Of a DNA stretch of 64,000 bases, positions 2 to 33,888 are shown one piece after another. How positions within the stretch are numbered: position 1 is the stretch's first letter; the number at the start of each line of letters is the position of its first letter. The DNA lies in assembly GCF_004339245.1 (NCBI RefSeq), contig NZ_SMGG01000005.1:186001-250000 (forward strand), written 5' to 3'. Source of the DNA: Seleniivibrio woodruffii. Lineage in GTDB: Bacteria; Chrysiogenota; Deferribacteres; Deferribacterales; Geovibrionaceae. The notes beneath the pieces were generated by a model. That model ran no database searches. It saw nothing but the letters and a program-made list of their open reading frames with translations, and was not told where the DNA came from. Made by a program: the position numbers and the translations under genes.

Positions 2-1990
2 GTGACCTCTATGACCCTCACCAGTCTCGACTGGTCGGCGGCATCCCTTATCAATTCGCAGGATATTAAAGGCTTGCAGAGGTTAATTGAAAACGCCGCA
101 TCCAACAGGTTCATAAGCTATATGAACGTCTGCGGCGCAAACGGCAGGATAATCGCCAGCAGCAGTCCTGCGGAAATCGGCAAACCATGGAAATCAGAAC
201 TGGTTAAGGCCGTTTTTGAAAAACACGCTCTCATACGCCGCAAAATGCACTCGGACAACACCTTCGAAGCCGCAGTGCCCGTTTCCGGCCAGATATTTGA
301 CAACCTTTCCCAGAGCAGCATTCAGGCCGTGATATATCTGAAAGTGGATAAATACTATGCCGACCAGATATACAGGGAATACAGCGACTTTTTTGTAACC
401 CAGTATGCGTTTGTCTCCGTTCTGGTAACGATCTGCTTCCTGTTCCTTATCTCCCGCATGGTTCTGAGCCCGCTGAAAAAACAGCAGAATGCCATCAACA
501 GCATAACCACCGGCAACTACGACGTTCATCTGGAAGTGCTCCGCAAGGACGAGCTGGGAAGGTTTGCAGATACCATAAACGCAATGAGCTCTGAAATACT
601 CTCAAACAGACTGGAACTGGAAAAGACCAACAAAAACCTCTCCGAATATCTGAAAGCCATCGACGAAAGCGTCATAGTCATAAGATCTTCTCTGGAGGGC
701 AAAATAACCTATGCGAACAAGAAATTCTACGAGATAACCGGATACACCAAAAACGAGATAATCGGCGCTCCCGTCGGCATGATAAGAAACTACGATACCG
801 ATGAAGACACCCTCATCAACTACTGGGAAACGATCCTCAACCGTTTCATATGGCGGGAGGTCATAGAGAAAAGGGCGAAGGACGGCAAAAAGTTTTATGT
901 AAACGCCACCATAAACCCCATAACCGATACAGACGGCGAGGTTATCGAGTTCATAGACATCTGGTATGACATCACGCAGATATACGAACTCAAAGAAGAG
1001 CTGAAAATGCATAAGGAGAATCTGGAGGATATCGTCTGTCTGCGCACAAAGGAACTGTTCGATTCCCACCAGAAACTTAAAAACGCATATGCCGAATCCG
1101 AACAGCTGAACAACACGCTCAGGCTCACTCAGGCCAGAATGGTTCAGCAGGAGAAGCTGGCATCCATAGGTCAGCTGGCCGCCGGAGTCGCCCACGAGCT
1201 GAACAACCCCGTGGGTTTCATCTCCAGCAATTTCGATGTGATGAAAAGGTATTACGACCAGACCTTCTCATATGTTAAGGAACTGGAAAACAGCATAGCC
1301 GAAATGGAAAAAAGGTGCGGCAGAAAGTGCGGAAACGATATACAGAGCCTTTTTGACGAAATGGAAAAGAGCAGAAGCAACAGCAGAGTGAATTTCATAA
1401 TGTCCGACACTCAGGACATCTTTAAAGAATGCGAGCACGGATTCGCCAGAGTTTCAGGGATAATAAACAGCCTCAGGGACTTCTCCAGAATAGACATAGA
1501 GGAGAAACTGGCTCCCTATAACCTGAACGAGGGTATCAGAAGCACGGTCACAGTGGCAAAGAACGAGATAAAGTACGTTGCAGATGTCAATCTCGACCTG
1601 CGTGACCTACCGGATATACTCTGCAACGGCGGCGAGATAAATCAGGTGCTTCTTAACCTTATAGTCAATGCGGCTCACGCCATTGAGGATTCCGGAGAAA
1701 AAAAGGGAACCATAGACATAGCCACAAGGCTGGATCTGGGATTTGTGGTCTGCACTATCAGAGATTCAGGCAAAGGCATCCCTGCGGAATATCTGGGGAA
1801 GGTATTTGACCCGTTCTTCACAACAAAAGCGCCCGGAAAGGGAACCGGACTGGGCTTAAGCATTTCATACGATATCATTGTCAACAAACACAAAGGCATG
1901 CTCTATGCCGAAAACGACGGCGGAGCAAAATTTACTATCACGCTTCCTTTAAAAAGCGGATCAGTGGAGGAGAAGGATGTTCAGTTTTAA
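2..1990 (+). CDS. Membrane sensor histidine kinase (HAMP-PAS-HisKA-HATPase), probably 5'-truncated
   Basis: The frame is open to the left edge, so the true start and probably a first membrane segment lie outside the window. What remains (about 662 residues) has an extracytoplasmic sensor part, a membrane segment near residues 130-152, a HAMP linker, a PAS domain near 215-335 and a coiled coil. The phosphoacceptor motif VAHELNNPVGF follows, with His about 398. The ATPase domain has an N box (LLNLIVNAAHAI), DSGKGIP and GTGLGLS. It should autophosphorylate at the inner membrane and pass phosphate to a receiver; the two regulators just downstream are obvious partners. Its stop overlaps the next kinase by 14 bases, so the genes are translationally coupled. 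The ligand is not predictable. Confidence 0.9.
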   Translation: MTSMTLTSLDWSAASLINSQDIKGLQRLIENAASNRFISYMNVCGANGRIIASSSPAEIGKPWKSELVKAVFEKHALIRRKMHSDNTFEAAVPVSGQIFDNLSQSSIQAVIYLKVDKYYADQIYREYSDFFVTQYAFVSVLVTICFLFLISRMVLSPLKKQQNAINSITTGNYDVHLEVLRKDELGRFADTINAMSSEILSNRLELEKTNKNLSEYLKAIDESVIVIRSSLEGKITYANKKFYEITGYTKNEIIGAPVGMIRNYDTDEDTLINYWETILNRFIWREVIEKRAKDGKKFYVNATINPITDTDGEVIEFIDIWYDITQIYELKEELKMHKENLEDIVCLRTKELFDSHQKLKNAYAESEQLNNTLRLTQARMVQQEKLASIGQLAAGVAHELNNPVGFISSNFDVMKRYYDQTFSYVKELENSIAEMEKRCGRKCGNDIQSLFDEMEKSRSNSRVNFIMSDTQDIFKECEHGFARVSGIINSLRDFSRIDIEEKLAPYNLNEGIRSTVTVAKNEIKYVADVNLDLRDLPDILCNGGEINQVLLNLIVNAAHAIEDSGEKKGTIDIATRLDLGFVVCTIRDSGKGIPAEYLGKVFDPFFTTKAPGKGTGLGLSISYDIIVNKHKGMLYAENDGGAKFTITLPLKSGSVEEKDVQF

Positions 1991-3131
1991 CGAAATAGCC
2001 GAAATGCTCAAATCAGATATAAAAGATCCGGCGGAATACGTTCAGTATGCGGCGGAAGTTCTGGAACAGGAGATATGCGGACTTAATGCGAAATTCAGAC
2101 CGGACACCCACGGCGGCAATATGCCCTCTGCCGGAAACCATATCATCTCAGCGGGGGAGGCAGGCCGCATACATATCTCATATTTTCCTGAGATGGCAGA
2201 AAGTCTTATACCATTTTTCAGGATCATTGAACTGGAAACGGAGGTCAGACTGGCAAACAGCCGTCTGCGCAGACTGGAAATGTCGCTGGCGGACACGGAC
2301 ACAGAGACTCTGGAAAAACTGAGGGTGACTCAGGCGGCTCTGATAAGGCAGGAGAAACTGGCCTCACTGGGACAGCTCTCCTCCGGTGTGGCGCACGAGC
2401 TGAACAACCCTCTCGGTTTCATCTCCGGCAACTTTGACGTCCTGAAGAACTACAGGAACCTTTTTCTTGCCTTTCTGATGCAGGCGAAGGGGCTGATCCC
2501 CGCCGACAGGCTTCCTGAATATGAAGAGCTGAAACACCTGCACAGGGTGGATTATCTTCTGCAGGACACCGAAGACATATTCAAGGAATCCTCGGACGGT
2601 TTCAGGCGTATATCCCACATTGTAGAGGGTCTGCTGGCATTCGCCAGAAACGACACCGGCCGAATGGAACCTGCCAGCCTGAACGACAGTATAGAATCCA
2701 CAGTGGACATCTGCCGCAGTCAGTTCAGGTTTGTGGCCAAGGTGACAAAGGAACTGGAGGATATCCCCGATTTCGAATTCTGCTCCGGCGAGATAAATCA
2801 GGTGCTCCTCAACCTCATCCTGAACTCTGTTCAGGCCATTAAAGCACAGGAGAGGGACGACTACGGAACCATTGCCATCCGCAGTTTCAAATTCGGAAAC
2901 ATGGCCTGCTGTTCAGTGACCGACGACGGAGGCGGCATAAGCGAAGAGGATCTGGACAGGATATTCAGTGCGTTCTACACCACCAAGCCCGAAAACAGCG
3001 GAACAGGGCTGGGGCTTAGCACCTCATACGAAATAATCGTAAATAGACACAAGGGAACCATAGACGCTGAAAGCAGTGACGGAAAGACCACTTTCACTTT
3101 CAGAATCCCAATGAGAACTGGCGGAAGGTAA
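1977..3131 (+). CDS. Cytoplasmic sensor histidine kinase
   Basis: A 384-residue kinase without membrane segments. The N-terminal 120 residues include a helical, probably coiled-coil stretch ending in a TQAALIRQEKLASLGQLSSG linker. The phosphoacceptor motif VAHELNNPLGF has His about 140. A complete HATPase follows, with LLNLILNSVQAI, DDGGGIS and GTGLGLS. The H-box region is very similar to that of the overlapping upstream kinase, suggesting duplication of the catalytic core. Lacking a transmembrane sensor, it may take its signal from the membrane kinase or from a cytoplasmic cue. It precedes the HDOD regulator by 3 bases and belongs to the same operon. Confidence 0.9.
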   Translation: MFSFNEIAEMLKSDIKDPAEYVQYAAEVLEQEICGLNAKFRPDTHGGNMPSAGNHIISAGEAGRIHISYFPEMAESLIPFFRIIELETEVRLANSRLRRLEMSLADTDTETLEKLRVTQAALIRQEKLASLGQLSSGVAHELNNPLGFISGNFDVLKNYRNLFLAFLMQAKGLIPADRLPEYEELKHLHRVDYLLQDTEDIFKESSDGFRRISHIVEGLLAFARNDTGRMEPASLNDSIESTVDICRSQFRFVAKVTKELEDIPDFEFCSGEINQVLLNLILNSVQAIKAQERDDYGTIAIRSFKFGNMACCSVTDDGGGISEEDLDRIFSAFYTTKPENSGTGLGLSTSYEIIVNRHKGTIDAESSDGKTTFTFRIPMRTGGR

Positions 3132-3134
3132 CGG

Positions 3135-4340
3135 ATGAACTCAACTCAGGGAAAGATACTTATTGTTGATGACGAACTGAATATAACCAACTCACTAAGG
3201 CGCATGTTCGTTTGTGAGGGTCTGGATGTGCTTATAGCCAACAGTGCGGAGGAGGCTCTGGATATCCTGAGCAAAAACGAAGCCGAGCTGATCCTCAGCG
3301 ACTATAAGATGCCGGATGTTAACGGCATACAGCTGCTGACGACCGTAAAATCACAGTACCCCAACGTTTTCCGTGCCATCCTCAGCGGATATGTGGAAAC
3401 GGACACCATAACCTATGCCATAAGCAAGGGCATAGCCATGGCCTATTTCAAAAAGCCCTGGACCGACTATAACCTTGCGGAGAAGATAATCCATATCATC
3501 CGGACTGTGCGGCAGGTAAAAAACAGAGACCTTGTCAGAATATTCAGCCGGATGGACAAACTGCCCGGCATCCCCGAAATATATCTCAGGCTGGAGCGTG
3601 CCATTCAGGCGGGTAAATCCATTGAAAAGATCGCCTCAATAGTGAAACAGGATGCCTCCATGACAGCAAAGATAATGCAGATAGGCAATTCAGTGTTTTA
3701 CAGCGGAAAGAAATATCTTCCTCTGGAACAGGCCATTCTGATGATAGGGCTGAACACCATAAAAGAGATAGTGCTGATGTATAAGCTTTCAGAGGGGATG
3801 GTGCCTTCAAAAGTTAACGAAGACGACCTGAGAGCAATATTCCGGCATGCGCTGATACTGAACAAAGCGGTAGAGCTGTGTCTGCATGATTCGGGCAAAA
3901 AATATAACCGCAGCGTATCGGACACGATAGGGATACTCTCATGCATCGGGATGATAATTCTACTTTCATCAAAACCGGATGCATTCAGGGAAATTTACGA
4001 AACCGCCCTGAGAAACGGAATAACCTTTCACGAGGCCGAAAACCTCATGGGCATAAAAGAAGACCTGAGCCTGAATATCACATGTCATCTGCTGGATCTG
4101 TACAATATGCCGTTTGATATTCTGGAAATTATACACTACAGAAACAACCTTGATTCTGTTTCGCCGGAAAACAGGTTCATTGCCTGCGTGCTTAATGCAG
4201 TGTCCTCTGTGGCGGCCAGAGTGCGGGCGGGAATGGAGTCTGAACCAATGCCCGCAGTTGAGGGATTATCTATACAAACAATTGAAAAAGCCGAGCGACT
4301 GATTACGGAGGCCTATTATGCATACGATAACAGATTCTGA
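3135..4340 (+). CDS. Response regulator with HDOD output domain
   Basis: The receiver occupies residues 1-125: acidic pair VDDE near 11-14, phosphoacceptor Asp 56 in LSDYKMPD, and conserved Lys in FKKPW. It is followed by an HDOD domain (about 140-340; it begins LPGIPEIYLRLERAI and has a QDASMTAKIMQIGNS motif). HDOD proteins are HD-superfamily relatives usually lacking metal-dependent phosphodiesterase activity and acting in signalling. A ribosome-binding site (GGAAGG) lies directly before the ATG. The gene follows two kinases and overlaps the next receiver by 23 bases, so the four genes look like one phosphorelay unit. The output target is unknown. Confidence 0.88.
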   Translation: MNSTQGKILIVDDELNITNSLRRMFVCEGLDVLIANSAEEALDILSKNEAELILSDYKMPDVNGIQLLTTVKSQYPNVFRAILSGYVETDTITYAISKGIAMAYFKKPWTDYNLAEKIIHIIRTVRQVKNRDLVRIFSRMDKLPGIPEIYLRLERAIQAGKSIEKIASIVKQDASMTAKIMQIGNSVFYSGKKYLPLEQAILMIGLNTIKEIVLMYKLSEGMVPSKVNEDDLRAIFRHALILNKAVELCLHDSGKKYNRSVSDTIGILSCIGMIILLSSKPDAFREIYETALRNGITFHEAENLMGIKEDLSLNITCHLLDLYNMPFDILEIIHYRNNLDSVSPENRFIACVLNAVSSVAARVRAGMESEPMPAVEGLSIQTIEKAERLITEAYYAYDNRF

Positions 4341-4746
4341 CATCGTTCTCTTTGTTGACGACGAGGAGAGCATTCTTAAAGCGATCGACCGCAGTCTGAG
4401 CGACGTCAGGTTCAGCACTATGTTCTGCAGCGACTCAATGCAGGTCATGGATATGCTGGAACAGCACAGAATAAACGTAGTTGTTACAGATTTGAAAATG
4501 CCGGGCAAAAACGGAATAGAGCTTGTGCGGATGATAAACGCAAAATTCCCGCATATACGCATAATCGTACTGTCAGGATACTATCAGGTGTCCACTGTGA
4601 TGTCTGTAACCCGTGCCGGAAAGATCTTCCATTTTTTCACTAAGCCATGGAAGATGGACAACGAGTTTATCTCCGTTATAGAGAAGGCTATAATCAGCAG
4701 CAGAGAGAGCAGGGAATCCGCAGACGGGCTGTCTGCTCAGGTCTGA
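4318..4746 (+). CDS. Stand-alone receiver (CheY-like) response regulator
   Basis: 142 residues consisting almost entirely of one receiver domain: VDDE near residues 13-16, phosphoacceptor Asp 58 in VTDLKMPG, LSGYY with the conserved Ser/Thr, and Lys in FTKPW. There is no DNA-binding or enzymatic output, so it probably acts by protein contact or as a phosphate shuttle in a relay. It starts inside the end of the HDOD regulator and closes the operon. The FxKPW ending is shared with the HDOD receiver, which suggests the two came from one lineage. It converges on cowN with a 6-base gap and no clear terminator between them. Confidence 0.88.
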   Translation: MHTITDSDIVLFVDDEESILKAIDRSLSDVRFSTMFCSDSMQVMDMLEQHRINVVVTDLKMPGKNGIELVRMINAKFPHIRIIVLSGYYQVSTVMSVTRAGKIFHFFTKPWKMDNEFISVIEKAIISSRESRESADGLSAQV

Positions 4747-4752
4747 CCTGCG

Positions 4753-5073
4753 TCAGCAGCACTCGGACTCGCATTTCTCCAGAGCGTGTGCTGCGTCCTC
4801 ATCTGCCACGGCATCAAAGAGTTCTCCGATGTTTGATGCGCAGGAGCAAACCATATAAAGCAGGACCTCTTTGGGGTCCTGTTTTGGGTCTCGTGCGTAG
4901 TAAGCATCAGGGATTCTCGTCACAAATCTTTCCCAGTAGGCGTTTGCATTCCGAGGCTCTTTCAGTATCCTCAGAAGATGGTCAATGACAACGCAGGCAT
5001 TTTCGAAGCAGTTGATGTTCTTAAAGCTGACATAGCTTTCATCAACCTTGATCTCTTTCTTGCAGTTACACAT
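4753..5073 (-). CDS. cowN: CowN-like protein protecting nitrogenase from CO
   Basis: A 106-residue, cysteine-rich protein. It starts MCNCK, contains the family-typical YVSFKNINCFENACVVID stretch, and ends in the characteristic ESECC. These match the CowN family, first described in Rhodospirillum rubrum, which sustains N2 fixation when carbon monoxide is present. Members are normally 90-110 residues. No nif genes are in the window, so its presence predicts a nitrogenase elsewhere in the genome. It is transcribed divergently from an AraC-type regulator 111 bases away, which may or may not control it. A ribosome-binding AGGA lies 9 bases before the start. Confidence 0.85.
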   Translation of the reverse strand: MCNCKKEIKVDESYVSFKNINCFENACVVIDHLLRILKEPRNANAYWERFVTRIPDAYYARDPKQDPKEVLLYMVCSCASNIGELFDAVADEDAAHALEKCESECC

Positions 5074-5109
5074 TTTTGTATGTCCTCAGGGGTATTTTAT
5101 CGCATTATA
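5074..5109 (-). promoter_or_regulatory. Possible cowN promoter -10 and leader
   Basis: On the minus strand a perfect TATAAT lies at 5109-5104. It would place the transcript start near 5097, leaving a leader of about 24 bases with AGGA (5086-5083). No convincing -35 box is visible 17 bases upstream, so an activator may be needed. I saw no sigma-54 GG/GC element, which would be expected for NifA control. Confidence 0.4.
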
Positions 5110-5184
5110 CATGTTTACTACCGCTTTTGTATGCTATATCATGAATTATTACTGACATTTTACGAAAACTCAAAAGGTTGAACA

Positions 5185-6183
5185 ATGACTCTGGTCTCCT
5201 CCATAACTTTCCAATACGTTCTGAAAGCTCTGGAACAGAACACAAAAATACCCTCCGGAGAGATGCTCGCCCATGTGGGGCTCAGAGCTGAACAGCTTTC
5301 AAAGAACGTCCACGGCATCGACAGCCGCAGGCTCTCCGCCATATTCCGCTACTGCATGGAGAAAACGGACAACCCCTATCTTTCGCTGGATATCGGCCAG
5401 TCCATACCCTATCAGTCGCTGGGGATTCTCGGCTATCTGCTGATGAACACAAAGACCCTGCGGGAGATGATAGAAAAATTCAGCGTCTATCAGAAGCTCA
5501 TAAGCGAACACCTGAAGTTTCATTTCTCTGACGACGGAAAATTCTGTAAATTTGCAATATACATAGACGGCAACAGAAACATTCCCGTGCCGCCTTATCA
5601 TGCCGAAGTACACATGAGCGGCATTCTGAACATTCTTTCAGGGGTTCTGGGCAGACATGTGTTTCCGGCTCATACGCATTTCACAGGGGAAAAACCGGCC
5701 GACTGTGCAAAACACAGGGAACTTTTCGGAGACAGCATCCTTTTCGGAAAAGAGGAGAACGCCCTCTTCTTCAAAAAGGATGAACTTGATATTCCGGTGG
5801 ACAATGCAAACCAGTCCATGCTGGAATACTTTGAAACTCAGGCCGCAAACCTGCTTCAGGAGCAGGAAAAAAGCTCATGGTTCGGCAGAGTGGAAAAGGA
5901 GATACTGAAAAACATAGGCGACAGGGGCACGTCCATAGAGTTTATCTCCTCCCGCCTGAATGTCAGCGTGAGGACACTCCAGAACTATCTGAAAGCCGAA
6001 GAAAAAACCTTCATGCAGGCTCTGACAAACGTCCGCAGACGTCTGGCCGAACATTACATCATGCACACAAAACTGGACGACGCATCCATATCCGCCCTTC
6101 TGGGCTACAGCGAGGTCAGCGCATTCTACAGGGCATATAAAAAATGGAATAAAAACACACCGAAATATTTAAGGAAAAAATAA
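5185..6183 (+). CDS. AraC-family transcriptional regulator (Arabinose_bd-type N-terminus)
   Basis: 332 residues. The N-terminal two thirds resemble the Arabinose_bd/OruR-type domain (GQSIPYQSLGILGYLLMN is typical). The C-terminal hundred residues form the double helix-turn-helix: SIEFISSRLNVSVRTLQNYL, then the second helix pair and GYSEVSAFYRAYKKW. It is a cytoplasmic DNA-binding protein with an unknown ligand. An AAAGG lies 8 bases upstream of the ATG. It is divergent from cowN and followed by 220 bases of non-coding DNA before the convergent decahaem cytochrome gene. Confidence 0.9.
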   Translation: MTLVSSITFQYVLKALEQNTKIPSGEMLAHVGLRAEQLSKNVHGIDSRRLSAIFRYCMEKTDNPYLSLDIGQSIPYQSLGILGYLLMNTKTLREMIEKFSVYQKLISEHLKFHFSDDGKFCKFAIYIDGNRNIPVPPYHAEVHMSGILNILSGVLGRHVFPAHTHFTGEKPADCAKHRELFGDSILFGKEENALFFKKDELDIPVDNANQSMLEYFETQAANLLQEQEKSSWFGRVEKEILKNIGDRGTSIEFISSRLNVSVRTLQNYLKAEEKTFMQALTNVRRRLAEHYIMHTKLDDASISALLGYSEVSAFYRAYKKWNKNTPKYLRKK

Positions 6184-10209: not shown

Positions 10210-10213
10210 CAAA

Positions 10214-10287
10214 TCGGGATGACAGGATTTGAACCTGCGACCACCTGTTCCCAAGACAGGTACGCTACCAAGCTGCGCTACATCCCG
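10214..10287 (-). tRNA. tRNA-Pro (anticodon TGG)
   Basis: On the minus strand a complete cloverleaf can be drawn. The 7-bp acceptor stem is CGGGATG/CATCCCG, followed by D arm GCGCAGC...GC, anticodon stem CCTGT/ACAGG and loop CTTGGGA giving anticodon TGG. The T arm is GCAGG-TTCAAAT-CCTGT, with discriminator A. CCA is not encoded (ATTT follows). It reads CCA and by wobble other proline codons. A disrupted copy lies upstream in the same transcript. Confidence 0.95.
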
Positions 10288-10322
10288 AACGTTATATTCA
10301 TAAGTTAAACTCAAATCCTGAA

Positions 10323-10422
10323 GATGACAGGATTGAGCCCGAAACAAGTTCGGGCGCCTGCGGCTGAACCTGCGACCACCTGTTCCCAAGACAGGTACGC
10401 TACCAAGCTGCGCTACATCCCG
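10323..10422 (-). pseudogene. Disrupted tRNA-Pro copy with a 30-base palindromic insert in the T arm
   Basis: Sixty-one bases (10365-10425) are identical to the 5' part of the intact tRNA-Pro. At 10335-10364 thirty extra bases containing GCCCGAAACAAGTTCGGGC split the T loop, and the 3' acceptor strand has lost its outer pairs (AAGATG instead of CGGGATG). It cannot form a normal tRNA. It is nearest to the promoter, so it is probably transcribed with the intact gene. Confidence 0.8.
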
Positions 10423-28953: not shown

Positions 28954-28962
28954 ATCTCTATG

Positions 28963-29057
28963 AAGTTCTCTAGGGTTCCGCGGGAGACCGGACAGTGACC
29001 GAGAGAGAACGGCAGTAAAACAAACTGTTACACGGCGGGATAAAAGCCCGGGAGATG
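28963..29057 (+). ncRNA. Guanidine-I (ykkC) riboswitch aptamer
   Basis: Contains the conserved blocks of the ykkC class: CTAGGGTTCCG, a central CCGGACAGTGACCGAGAGAG-type region, and ACACGGCGGGATAAAAGCC followed by CGGGAGA. It lies directly upstream of two small multidrug resistance-type exporter genes, the usual cargo of this riboswitch. Guanidine binding should stop formation of the overlapping terminator and turn the exporters on. Confidence 0.9.
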
Positions 29058-29103: not shown

Positions 29104-29433
29104 ATGACAAGGACATGGATAACTGTGGTAACAGCCGCATTTTTTGAGGTGGGCTGGGTGATAGGGCTTAAGGCATCCGACAGTTTTACAGACTGGGCGG
29201 CAACAGTGTTTGCAGTGGCTGTCAGCTTCCGACTGCTGATAAAGGCCACAAAACAACTGCCCGTGGGCACGGTTTATGCAGTTTTCGTCGGGCTTGGAAC
29301 TGCGGGAACGACCATAGCCGAGATAATCCTTTTCGGTGCAGAGATTCAGCCTGCAAAGATAGGGCTTATCGCCCTTCTGCTTGCGGGGGTTATAGCCCTC
29401 AAGCTCGAAAGCGCATCAGCCAAAGGAACTTGA
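29104..29433 (+). CDS. SMR-family guanidinium exporter subunit 1
   Basis: 109 residues, four membrane helices. The essential helix-1 glutamate is in AAFFEVGWVIGLK (about residue 15), and GTVYAVFVGLGTAGT is the typical helix-3 motif. Together with the next gene it matches the heterodimeric YkkC/YkkD-type guanidinium (Gdx) arrangement: proton-coupled export from the cytoplasm. Placement behind a guanidine-I riboswitch supports guanidinium as the substrate over drugs. The stop is one base before the next ATG. Confidence 0.88.
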   Translation: MTRTWITVVTAAFFEVGWVIGLKASDSFTDWAATVFAVAVSFRLLIKATKQLPVGTVYAVFVGLGTAGTTIAEIILFGAEIQPAKIGLIALLLAGVIALKLESASAKGT

Positions 29434-29434
29434 C

Positions 29435-29749
29435 ATGGAATGGATATATCTGATACTCGCAGGAATTTTTGAGATAACAGGCGTAGCCTCAATCAGCATT
29501 CTGAACAGAAAGCAAAACGCCGCCTCGTTCTTAGCCATGGTTGCAACCTTCGGGCTGAGCTTTCTTTTTCTGTCGATGGCGATGAAAACAATCCCCATGA
29601 GCACTGCATACGCTGTGTGGACGGGGATAGGAGCATCCGGCGGAGCGGCGGCGGGGATCTTTTTATACAATGAACCCAAAAGCTTCATCAGGGTGGCCTC
29701 GATTATAATAGTGCTTGCTTCTGCGGTCGGACTGAAACTAATTAACTAG
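29435..29749 (+). CDS. SMR-family guanidinium exporter subunit 2
   Basis: 104 residues, four membrane helices, helix-1 Glu in LAGIFEITGVASI (about residue 13) and AYAVWTGIGASGG in helix 3. Its paralogue lies immediately upstream, so the functional pump is probably a dual-topology heterodimer. Both are under the riboswitch. Confidence 0.88.
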   Translation: MEWIYLILAGIFEITGVASISILNRKQNAASFLAMVATFGLSFLFLSMAMKTIPMSTAYAVWTGIGASGGAAAGIFLYNEPKSFIRVASIIIVLASAVGLKLIN

Positions 29750-29832
29750 CGAATTTTAAAAAACTTCCGGTACTCTAAAGATATAGTTACCCGTCTAATC
29801 AGAACCATATTTTGAAATGCATGCAAATAAAG

Positions 29833-29860
29833 TTGCGCACTATTCGAACTATGGTAAAAT
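29833..29860 (+). promoter_or_regulatory. Probable promoter of the hydrogenase-chemoreceptor operon
   Basis: TTGCGC (29833-29838), 16-base spacer, TAAAAT (29855-29860) with an extended -10 (TGG directly before it). It leaves a leader of about 40 bases. Confidence 0.55.
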
Positions 29861-29907
29861 ACCCCATGGGTGATTAATTATTCTTTTTGCTTATTGGAGG
29901 CTCCTGC

Positions 29908-31338
29908 ATGTCTAAAACCATCGCAATCGAGCCGCTGACTAGAATCGAAGGACACTTGAAGGTCGAAACACAAGTAGAAAACTCAAGAGTGACCAACGCC
30001 TTTATCAGCGGACAGATGTTCCGCGGGTTCGAAAAATTTCTCGAAAACCGGCATCCCATCGACGCAGCCAGAATCGCACAGAGAGTGTGCGGTGTGTGCC
30101 ACGAGGTACACGGCGTAGCGTCCGTTCTGGCTCTTGAAGAGCTCTATTCAAAACCATCGCCAAAAAACGGGCATATCCTGAGAGACATGATTCTTGGTCT
30201 GCACCTTATAACAGACCATTTTCTTCATTTCTATACGCTGTGCTTACCCGATTTTATTGATTTTACACAGATACTTAACTACAAAGGAAACGACACCGAG
30301 ATCAACTCTCTGAAAAGCTGGGTCGCCAGCACCAAGCCCGCCTTTGTTTTGAAGCGGAACGCCGGAAACTATATCACGCATACACCCACTGCGCTGAATA
30401 TCATGGCAAACTATTTCAAAGCTCTCAAAATACGCAGCAAAGGTGCCGCCGGAATAGCCATTATAGGCGCAAAGGCGCCTTTTTCCCATGCTGTTCTGCC
30501 CGGCGGAATAACCACCGACATAACACCGGACAAACTTATGTATTACCACAACGTGCTTGAAGAGGTACGCCAGTTCACGGTCAACTGCTACATTCCCGAT
30601 GTGATGACCGTTGCCAAGCACTTCAAGGACTATTTCAACATAGGGGTCAGCCATGGAAACTTCTATGCCAACAAGACATTCACCGCTCTCGGCAAACCTG
30701 TCTTCGAGGGCGGAGTTTTTCTTAACGGCAGAACCGAACCTTTCTCAATGGCAAACGTAAAAGAATTTGTCGACAATTCATTCTATGACAGCAACGGAAA
30801 TCCCAACCCAAAGAAAAAAGGCGCATACAGCTGGGTGAAAGCCCCCCGCTATAAGGGCGAGCCTGTTGAGGTAGGGCCTCTGGCAAGGGTTATAATTTCC
30901 GACACACCCTATTTCAAAAATCTTATGAAGACCCTGAACGCCCCCGTAAAATCATCAACCATGGCAAGACACGTTGCCAGAGCGGCGGAATCCCGTGTTC
31001 TGCTGGATCATATGTACGGCCTGCTCGATGCCTACAGAATCGGCGACCCCACCATAAATCAGGTGGATTTCTCCAAAAAGGTTTCGGGCAAGGGAACAGG
31101 ACTTTCGCTGGCGGCCAGAGGAGACCTCATCCATCAGGTTGAGGCGTCCGGAGGCAAGATAACCAGATATAACATGATAGTGCCCAGCACATGGAACTTC
31201 AGCCCTGCGGCAAATGGCAAAAGGGGCGTTGTGGAGCAGTCGCTGGTGGGAACTCCCGTTGCATACGGCGAAGATGCCATCGAGGTTGGCAGGGTTATTA
31301 GAAGCTACGACCCCTGCACAGCCTGTTCCGTACACTGA
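29908..31338 (+). CDS. [NiFe] hydrogenase large subunit without C-terminal extension
   Basis: 476 residues from the ATG at 29908 (TTGGAGGCTCC upstream; an in-frame TTG at 29887 is rejected). MSKTIAIEPLTRIEGHL is the classic N-terminus. The four nickel ligands are present in RVCGVCHEVH and in the very last residues, DPCTACSVH. The stop codon follows that His directly, whereas periplasmic hydrogenases normally carry about 15 further residues that an endopeptidase removes after nickel insertion. It oxidises or senses H2 with the small subunit encoded next. No hyp or maturation protease genes are in the window. A C-terminal tail is also absent in regulatory H2 sensors. Confidence 0.95.
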   Translation: MSKTIAIEPLTRIEGHLKVETQVENSRVTNAFISGQMFRGFEKFLENRHPIDAARIAQRVCGVCHEVHGVASVLALEELYSKPSPKNGHILRDMILGLHLITDHFLHFYTLCLPDFIDFTQILNYKGNDTEINSLKSWVASTKPAFVLKRNAGNYITHTPTALNIMANYFKALKIRSKGAAGIAIIGAKAPFSHAVLPGGITTDITPDKLMYYHNVLEEVRQFTVNCYIPDVMTVAKHFKDYFNIGVSHGNFYANKTFTALGKPVFEGGVFLNGRTEPFSMANVKEFVDNSFYDSNGNPNPKKKGAYSWVKAPRYKGEPVEVGPLARVIISDTPYFKNLMKTLNAPVKSSTMARHVARAAESRVLLDHMYGLLDAYRIGDPTINQVDFSKKVSGKGTGLSLAARGDLIHQVEASGGKITRYNMIVPSTWNFSPAANGKRGVVEQSLVGTPVAYGEDAIEVGRVIRSYDPCTACSVH

Positions 31339-31351
31339 GAAGGAGCCTGTC

Positions 31352-32302
31352 ATGAATATATCAAGACGCCAGTTCCTGGACAACTGTGCCAAAATATCCT
31401 CAATGGTGTTCGGCTCATGCCTGTTCACCAACGAGATAGCCGAAGGTTTCATGAAGCTTTCCGCAACGGAAAGACCGCAGATAATCTTCATACAGTCGCA
31501 GTGCTGCACCGGATGCAGTATCTCCGCAACCTACGGTAACGAAGATGATTTCATCAACTTCATCACGAACATAGTCAGGCTTCAGGTTCACCCGAACCTG
31601 TCTTTCAGTCAGGGACACACCTATCTGAAGACCATAGAGGAGACGGTCGCATCAGGGCCTTTCTATCTGGTTTGCGAAGGCTCCGTCCCCGCCGGAATGA
31701 AAGAGGCCTGCATCTTCAACGACGAACCGATGTACGACTATCTCCATAAGCTCATGAAAAAAGCCGCCGCAATAGTGGCATCAGGCACCTGCGCCTGCTA
31801 CGGAGGCATTCCGGCATCAAACCAGAATGTCACCGGAGCCATTTCAATGGAAGCCTATATGAAGCGCACAGGGGTCAATAAGCCCCTGATAAAGATTCCC
31901 GGCTGCCCCATAAACCCCGACAGGCTTATGGGCACAGTGGCATACATTGTGGCCACGGGGAAGATTCCGGAACTGGTGAAGGGAGTACCGAAAAAATACT
32001 ATCCCGACCTGATACACAACCAGTGCGGACGCTATCAGGCTTTCAATCAGGGGCACTACACCAAGAATTTCGAAAGAGAGAAGCTGAACTGCCTGCTCAA
32101 AAACGGCTGCCGGGGGCCTGTGACCTATTCCGACTGCCCCACCCGCAGATGGAACGGCAAGGTCAGCGTGTGCATCGAAAGCAACGCACCCTGCATAGGA
32201 TGTGCGCATCCGGAGTTCCCGTTCAAAACAGCCCTCTATCTGGAAGAGGAATCTTTCAAAGACCTGACATGGTCTGAAATGAAGAAAATGATGGAGAAAT
32301 AG
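31352..32302 (+). CDS. [NiFe] hydrogenase small subunit, Tat-targeted
   Basis: 316 residues. The N-terminus [12 protein letters not shown] is a twin-arginine signal, so the folded dimer should be exported to the periplasm. Iron-sulfur ligands are visible: proximal cluster CCTGC, CEGS, TCACYGG and PGCP; distal and medial clusters in [26 protein letters not shown] and [10 protein letters not shown]. It passes electrons away from the NiFe site. There is no C-terminal membrane anchor and no cytochrome b gene, so the electron or signal acceptor must be soluble or the adjacent chemoreceptor. It starts 13 bases after the large subunit with AAGGAG upstream. Confidence 0.95.
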
Positions 32303-32304
32303 CC

Positions 32305-33888
32305 GTGAAAATAGAATTAAAGCAGTCCATAAAATTCAGAGCGGCGGTTTATATAATAACGCCCCTGCTGTGCCTTTTTGCGGTTCTCATGTTTATGGAT
32401 TACAGGAAAAACCAGCTCACCAAGGTGACCATGCACAGATACATGGACTACCTGAAAGAGATGATATTCATGTCCACCTACGACTCGCTGAAAAAAGGGA
32501 ACATGACCCTGTTCAGCGAGCTTCTGGCGGAGATAGGCAACTATGAACTGGTGAAGGAGTTCTCTCTGCTGACCCCCGAAGGGGTGGTGCGATACTCCTC
32601 ACACAACGAATCGGTGGGCAAAACAGAAGACCTCTCCCATGCCTCCAAGGAAAAGGAGGTGATGTATGTTGAAGACGGCGTCACAACCTTTTATTACCCT
32701 GTCGCAACAGCTCAATACTGCCTGCGCTGCCACAGAGAATGGGACGAGAACAGCATAAACTCATTCTATAAGGTCTCTCTGGATTCATCAGCCATCTCAA
32801 AAATAGAAAATGCCTCATACATAAACGATATTCTGCTGATAGCCGCCGGAATACTATCCATCGTGATACTCATTTCCGTCATGCAGAAGCTGGTTTTCGA
32901 AAGGCTCCAGAAGGCCAACGAGATAATGGACGACCTCTGCACAGGCGACGGCGACCTGACCATTCAGCTCAAAGTCAGGCGGATGGACGAAATAGGAACC
33001 CTGAGAAGCAAGATAAACAACTTTATCAGCCACCTGAGGGGAATGGTATCGGAGCTTAAGGACAAGATAGAGGATGTGGACGGTGACGTTTCGAACATCA
33101 GAACATCCCTCACGGCCATAAACAGCTCGGTTCAGGACAACGTTTCAAGTATAGCCACAATATCGGCTTCGTCCGAGCAGGTTTCGGCAACCCTCCACGA
33201 CAATATTCAGAACCTCACAAGCATAACCGACAGCGTCAACGAGAAGAAAAAATCCATCTCCGCGTCGCTGAACAACGTTATGACCATAACAGGCATGATA
33301 AACGAAATGACCTCGTCGGTGGAGTCGCTGAGCAAGACCATCTATAATCTGGAACAGCGGTCGAACGATATCAACAGCATAACCAACCTGATAAACGAGA
33401 TAGCCGACCAGACGAACCTGCTTGCGCTTAACGCCGCAATTGAGGCCGCCAGAGCCGGAGAGGCGGGAAGAGGCTTTGCTGTGGTCGCCGACGAGATAAG
33501 AAAACTGGCGGAGCGCACAACCAGCGCCACCAATGACATCAAATCCATCGTGTCTGACAACACAAAGATAATCACGGGAATAGTCAGCGAGATAGACCGG
33601 AACAAAGACCATGCCCAGAGCATGAATCAGGGCATAACGGATATCCAGAACTTCACCTGTGAAGTTGAAAAGACCATGGAGGACATCACCCGCAACATCG
33701 TCAACCTCACCCAGATGATGACCCAAAGCATCTCAGCACTGGAGGTGACCCTGAGCAGCATCGAAAACGTCAACGAAAACATGGCGCACACGGGCGAGAT
33801 TTCGAACAGGATTGCGGAAACGTCGAAATACCTCGGTGAAAAAAGCTCCCAGATGAGGGTTATTGCCGACAAGTTCAGAACGAAGTGA
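32305..33888 (+). CDS. Methyl-accepting chemotaxis protein with a c-type haem motif
   Basis: 527 residues, GTG start two bases after the hydrogenase small-subunit stop, with GGAG upstream. Membrane helices lie at about 12-28 and 168-190. The periplasmic domain between them contains Cys139-Leu-Arg-Cys142-His143, a covalent haem-attachment site. HAMP is at about 190-245, followed by a long coiled coil with the conserved tip [20 protein letters not shown]. Haem-c sensor domains occur in Geobacter receptors and Desulfovibrio DcrA. Position in the hydrogenase operon and shared compartment suggest that it reads H2 or the hydrogenase redox state and steers motility through CheA. Confidence 0.93.

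Follow-up and report, generated by a model that had tools for sequence, protein, structure and literature searches.

The characterized H2 sensors known to us are cytoplasmic. The regulatory hydrogenases HoxBC/HupUV, for instance, are found there without a Tat signal, have group 2 sequences and signal to a PAS kinase that contains no haem c; as members of group 2b, they carry bulky Ile/Phe residues in the gas channel. Most [NiFe] large subunits are made with an extra C-terminal peptide, which is cut off by an endopeptidase once nickel has been inserted, and H2-taxis has been reported for a methanogen. Kinds of large subunit without this extension have been named, comprising groups 2b and 2d (called H2-sensing in that work) as well as 4c, 4e and 4g (PMC7294309). 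In the literature we searched, no report was found of extension-less maturation in periplasmic (group-1-like) [NiFe] enzymes.

H2-taxis has also been proposed for the [FeFe] hydrogenases of group C2 (PMC5037454), and no receptor for this behavior was identified in the literature searched. Haem c-containing MCP domains have been described from Geobacter, where the haems of GSU0935 and GSU0582 (midpoint potentials -251 and -156 mV) are believed to gain a Met60 ligand on reduction (PMC8396549). Published accounts of haem-Cache receptors treat them as sensors of NO or redox state and do not mention hydrogenase (PMC12889525), and an MCP appears, without comment, among many neighbor clusters of [NiFe] large subunits (PMC12727194). 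No paper that we found describes a [NiFe] hydrogenase together with a haem chemoreceptor; the literature searched was mostly open-access, and an earlier description is possible.

We analyzed a 64,000-nucleotide window of the Seleniivibrio woodruffii genome (contig NZ_SMGG01000005.1, positions 186,001 to 250,000; coordinates below are those of the window unless a locus is named). Its gene calls include a three-gene operon entirely on the plus strand, with gaps of 13 and 2 bases as in the original prediction: a [NiFe]-hydrogenase large subunit (29908..31338, 476 aa), a hydrogenase small subunit (31352..32302, 316 aa) and a membrane chemoreceptor (MCP; 32305..33888, 527 aa, GTG start). Because the same unit is present twice in this genome and throughout its relatives, the grouping is not due to chance. 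As had also been predicted, no gene for a cytochrome b or another electron acceptor adjoins the operon in the window; its neighbors are a small multidrug resistance (SMR) pair and a KefB-like antiporter. The single promoter that had been assumed was not recovered, as a consensus scan upstream of the operon, from 29700 to 29908, gave no sigma-70-like site. The SMR gene pair (29104-29749, plus strand) lies directly 3′ of a Guanidine-I riboswitch (Rfam RF00442, 73 bits; 28959-29056, plus strand) and probably encodes guanidinium exporters. Elsewhere in the window, two adjacent tRNA-Pro(TGG) calls are found on the minus strand (10213-10288 and 10329-10421), the second of which spans 93 bases and is weaker.

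The large subunit matches the nickel-dependent hydrogenase family (PF00374, E 1.8e-102), and both CxxC Ni-binding motifs of [NiFe] enzymes are found, RVCGVC within the N-terminal RVCGVCHEVH (30082..30111, plus strand) and DPCTAC within the C-terminal DPCTACSVH (31309..31338, plus strand). The four Cys ligands of Ni and Fe (CGVC, CTAC) are present, as are, by motif, the canopy residues E14, D115, R404 and D468. The stop codon follows directly after DPCTACSVH: the maturation peptide that is typical, though not universal, of the ordinary uptake kind is absent, and linked homologs likewise lack a C-terminal extension. For both subunits, the closest solved structures are the periplasmic [NiFeSe] and [NiFe] (group 1) enzymes of Desulfovibrio. 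The curated NCBIfam cut-offs for HysA and HysB are nevertheless not reached (345 vs 780 bits and 210 vs 470 bits, respectively), and the large subunit has Cys where [NiFeSe] enzymes have Sec. The missing extension is a feature of group 2b regulatory hydrogenases as well, but the gas-channel residues of those enzymes are absent from the window protein, whose CGVC and HFYTL motifs carry the Val and Leu of ordinary enzymes. A change from Pro to Ala before the catalytic Arg was considered as a sensor signature and ruled out: Ala also occurs in 24 of 101 enzymes.

The small subunit matches NiFe_hyd_SSU_C and Oxidored_q6 in Pfam. Its N-terminus, MNISRRQFL, contains the twin-arginine motif SRRQFL (31361..31378, plus strand), whose RR is invariant in 12/12 homologs; group 2b small subunits are cytoplasmic and without such a signal. 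There is no C-terminal helix that could serve as a membrane tail. In an alignment of homologs, the Cys/His ligands of all three FeS clusters are kept, those of the distal cluster (His/Cys) included. Behind the last cluster ligands (32219-32299) lies a C-terminal tail of the EDLPWSEMKK type, common to the small subunits of this clade, which is a candidate docking element for the receptor.

The receptor consists of a first transmembrane helix, a periplasmic domain of ~140 residues containing the haem-c attachment motif CLRCH (residues 139-143; 32719..32733, plus strand), a second transmembrane helix and an MCP signaling domain (PF00015; 33319..33789, plus strand), matched above the Pfam cut-off (E 1.2e-36). 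Judged by signal and topology, the haem site thus shares a compartment with the Tat-targeted hydrogenase, in agreement with the original prediction. The CxxCH is invariant in the sensor domains we compared. A predicted model of the domain (mean pLDDT 79) has a Cache-like fold and aligns with receptor Cache domains at Z 10 to 12.7 (VIA-align); Foldseek places GSU0935 (3b42) at rank 14, a weak match (E 1.7e-3). The sCache_heme profile (PF11845, DUF3365/Tll0287) matches one of nine domain members, weakly (E 0.049), and that of PF21563 (Mcp40H-20_sensor) two of the nine (best E 0.0077). A sequence search of the PDB with the sensor-domain profile returned chance matches only.

All 29 of the single-haem sensors compared have a Met in the motif [K/R/T]G[N/E]M, which in the window receptor is Met67 of KGNM (32503..32505, plus strand). 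Given that its position matches that in GSU0935, Met67 is a candidate for the axial, distal ligand of the haem. Nine receptors carry two CxxCH motifs (L062, L124, L210 and L213-L218), and in these Arg stands in place of the single-haem Met, as if the second haem goes with another ligand.

Together with the recurrence, near-exclusive pairing, co-evolution and output swap described below, these features strongly suggest, at the level of sequence, that H2 is sensed by direct coupling of the hydrogenase to the receptor. The operon is probably an extracytoplasmic H2 sensor, in which electrons pass from the hydrogenase to the receptor haem and are converted into a transmembrane signal. Maturation would rely on the shared Hyp machinery and involve no proteolytic step, after which both subunits would fold and leave the cytoplasm together via Tat. 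In the periplasm, the hydrogenase would split H2 and its three FeS clusters would hand electrons to the receptor's one c-type haem, which is also the only haem that the operon offers, there being no cytochrome gene. Reduction would alter ligation of the haem, with Met67 binding or leaving, and shift the transmembrane helices; the MCP would then alter CheA activity, and the cell would thereby read H2 from the redox state of this haem. Complex formation, electron transfer, the ligand switch and the behavioral output are steps that we infer. Were the haem at the potential of GSU0935, its half-reduction at pH 7 and equilibrium is calculated to need ~3e-6 atm H2, or ~2 nM. This concentration is near the levels of anoxic sediments.

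The arrangement on which the original prediction depended, a tail-less [NiFe] pair linked to a haem-motif receptor, recurs in several phyla. We found the three-gene unit in Deferribacterota, Desulfuromonadia (277 genomes searched), Campylobacterota (397 genomes, nine with the large subunit), one Aquificota MAG (L075) and one further bacterium (L020); it is carried in at least four phyla. Within the phylum of the window, the sensor domain adjoins the extension-less large subunit in 20 of 24 matches. In most units, the third gene encodes an MCP. Four Desulfuromonas relatives (L019, L200, L201 and L203) have a PAS histidine kinase in its place, and L126, L127 and L123 a PAS-GGDEF protein, with an additional EAL domain in the first two. 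These kinase and cyclase versions, like the missing extension and the second operon in the window's genome, go beyond the original prediction. Common to all third genes is the periplasmic haem domain, and every linked transducer has the haem motif; the receptor without haem that would have spoken against the original prediction did not arise, as far as sequence shows. Its proposal of H2-taxis fits the MCP output and is too narrow as a general description, as other genomes feed a histidine kinase or a c-di-GMP enzyme. In those bacteria, the same input module would drive the histidine kinase or GGDEF-EAL protein.

The further bacterium, L020, has a second haem-motif MCP (CLKCH; 1947-3680, minus strand) divergent from the operon, and its small subunit has CSGD instead of CxGC at the proximal cluster. 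In L125, a transposase gene (4533-5954) splits the small subunit from the receptor and alters the small-subunit C-terminus; this insertion element is a natural disruption. A hydrogenase is missing next to some related haem transducers. One of these orphans, a haem GGDEF protein, adjoins pyruvate kinase in genome G020 (L221, 4628-7306); the matching place in genome G019 (L123, 2368-6614) holds hydrogenase genes and a haem GGDEF protein, which suggests that G020 lost its hydrogenase genes.

The large subunit and the sensor domain co-evolve. Distances between large subunits and between sensor domains are correlated across 38 operons (Mantel r 0.93) and within the window's clade (r 0.88), with 0/5000 permutations reaching r in either case; both values are raised because the two trees partly follow species ancestry. 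This pattern is compatible with contact, and hence with a second explanation, in which H2 binding reshapes the hydrogenase, the receptor reads the change through protein contact, a mechanism proposed for HoxBC and HoxJ, and the haem either has a structural role or tunes a second input. Regulatory hydrogenases do signal to HoxJ within a complex (PMC6978683), and the conserved tail of the small subunit could dock. A pure contact sensor, however, needs neither the haem motif present in every linked transducer nor the full FeS chain that has been kept, and we regard it as unlikely. In a tree of large subunits, the sensor type falls into two groups, requiring two changes, and a single clade has a p-AU of 0.41; one or two origins are therefore both compatible with the data.

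The extracytoplasmic sensor can be weighed further through enzymes with and without the maturation peptide. We compared 142 distinct large subunits from the fetched loci, which either end at CxxH or extend past it, and counted haem transducers located downstream on the same strand in cases with enough flank. Such a transducer stands beside 35/39 extension-less CxxH enzymes by script (37/39 once longer flanks were read) and beside 0/84 with an extension. Conversely, a protease motif is found near 56/101 large subunits with an extension vs 0/41 without. As the loci are related, these counts are not independent trials. Desulfuromonadia have both kinds side by side, with either an extension and a protease gene or no extension and a haem transducer.

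The same division is found within the window's own genome, in statements that rest on sequence searches of that genome. It encodes five [NiFe] large subunits, comprising three ordinary ones, the window gene and its paralog. Each ordinary hydrogenase has one of the three HycI-type proteases near it, and none was found near either sensor operon. The paralog belongs to a second full operon of large subunit, small subunit and haem receptor (G000:C3:1207827-1212150; locus L009, 3828-8150, minus strand), the products of which are 51, 58 and 32 percent identical to their window counterparts, respectively, with CLRCH also in the receptor. At E below 1e-8, the sensor-domain profile matches only the two operon receptors in this genome. 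The genome also encodes HypD, TatC, proteins for cytochrome c assembly and four CheA.

Not all extension-less enzymes adjoin a haem receptor. Two Campylobacterota pairs (L211 and L212) stand beside two-component genes instead, namely those for a response regulator, a histidine kinase and an SBP-PAS protein, and are possibly another kind of H2 sensor. In five further extension-less large subunits (L065, L081, L088, L091 and L075), the last His is replaced by Gln to give a CxxQ ending. The surroundings of L065 and L088 were read: non-sensor genes adjoin, with no haem receptor, and so a missing extension alone is no proof of sensing. Both have a small subunit without a visible Tat signal and a formate-THF ligase-like gene nearby, and L088 is additionally near methylene-THF reductase-like genes. 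Cytosolic extension-less CxxQ enzymes of this type occur in Acetothermia-like MAGs. The Aquificota locus L075, also with a CxxQ ending, combines a small subunit bearing a Tat signal with a haem MCP.

These comparisons bear on a third explanation, an ordinary uptake hydrogenase combined with generic redox (energy) taxis, in which the enzyme supplies periplasmic cytochromes with electrons, the receptor responds to the general redox state, and the genes share an operon only through their conditions of use. Cytochromes are indeed fed by soluble hydrogenases of periplasmic group 1, and environmental redox is the presumed signal of the Geobacter haem MCPs (PMC8396549). Such a combination does not account for a maturation tail that, apart from the exceptions above, is missing in receptor-linked enzymes only, for operons without a cytochrome, or for the near-exclusive pairing of the domain subfamily, its retention after duplication and its three output types; we consider it improbable. 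A sensor of NO or another gas, in which the hydrogenase keeps the haem ferrous and H2 is the reductant, not the signal, is very improbable: signaling sCache_heme domains are reported to behave like NO sensors (PMC12889525) and reduced Geobacter sensors reversibly bind CO and NO in place of the axial Met (PMC8396549), but other haem sensors manage without a dedicated hydrogenase, which would be costly as mere support, and the invariant Met suits a redox-switched ligand.

Gene linkage, the lack of a maturation peptide and the exchange of outputs all point one way, toward an extracytoplasmic H2 sensor. More broadly, we lean toward a widespread class in which exported, protease-independent [NiFe] hydrogenases inject electrons into haem-c Cache transducers as their sensory subunits, so that outside H2 would be read as haem redox state and wired to motility, transcription or c-di-GMP by output-domain swap. 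If this is true, the sensor lies outside the membrane, and a chemoreceptor uses a working redox enzyme as its detachable ligand-binding part. H2-taxis would gain a molecular basis in bacteria for which gradients of H2 are important, those of anoxic sediments and vents, and the module would be an H2-to-signal converter naturally joined to three outputs. The [NiFe] enzymes known to mature without proteolysis would also be joined by a group-1-like branch.

How the window system relates to those already described can be stated for each in turn. Desulfovibrio DcrA is not known to us as encoded with a hydrogenase. It resembles the window receptor as an MCP with a c-type haem, according to its citation in PMC8396549. 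The [FeFe] group C2, "chemotactic (putative)" in HydDB, shares the proposed sensing of H2 via a methyl-accepting chemotaxis protein but is an unrelated metalloenzyme, with a role that is putative in HydDB (PMC5037454). The sCache_heme receptors GSU0582 and GSU0935 are similar in their periplasmic Cache-like domain with one CxxCH and a candidate axial Met, and such domains are likewise fused to MCP, HK or GGDEF/EAL outputs; they differ in that no hydrogenase link is described for them in PMC8396549 and PMC12889525. Desulfovibrio HysAB, of the periplasmic [NiFeSe]/group 1 enzymes, is closest in solved structure and shares the Tat signal and the lack of a membrane tail, whereas the window enzyme has Cys for Sec, a 476-aa large subunit without extension, and scores well below the cut-offs. 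HoxBC/HupUV with the histidine kinase HoxJ (HydDB group 2b) is likewise a two-subunit, extension-less [NiFe] enzyme that serves as the H2 receptor of a transducer. In contrast to it, the window enzyme is exported by its predicted signal, is near the periplasmic [NiFeSe]/group 1 enzymes and has a transmembrane haem-c protein as its partner. With its Tat signal, other gas-channel residues and periplasmic kinship, the window system thus appears to work like the regulatory hydrogenases without being one of them.
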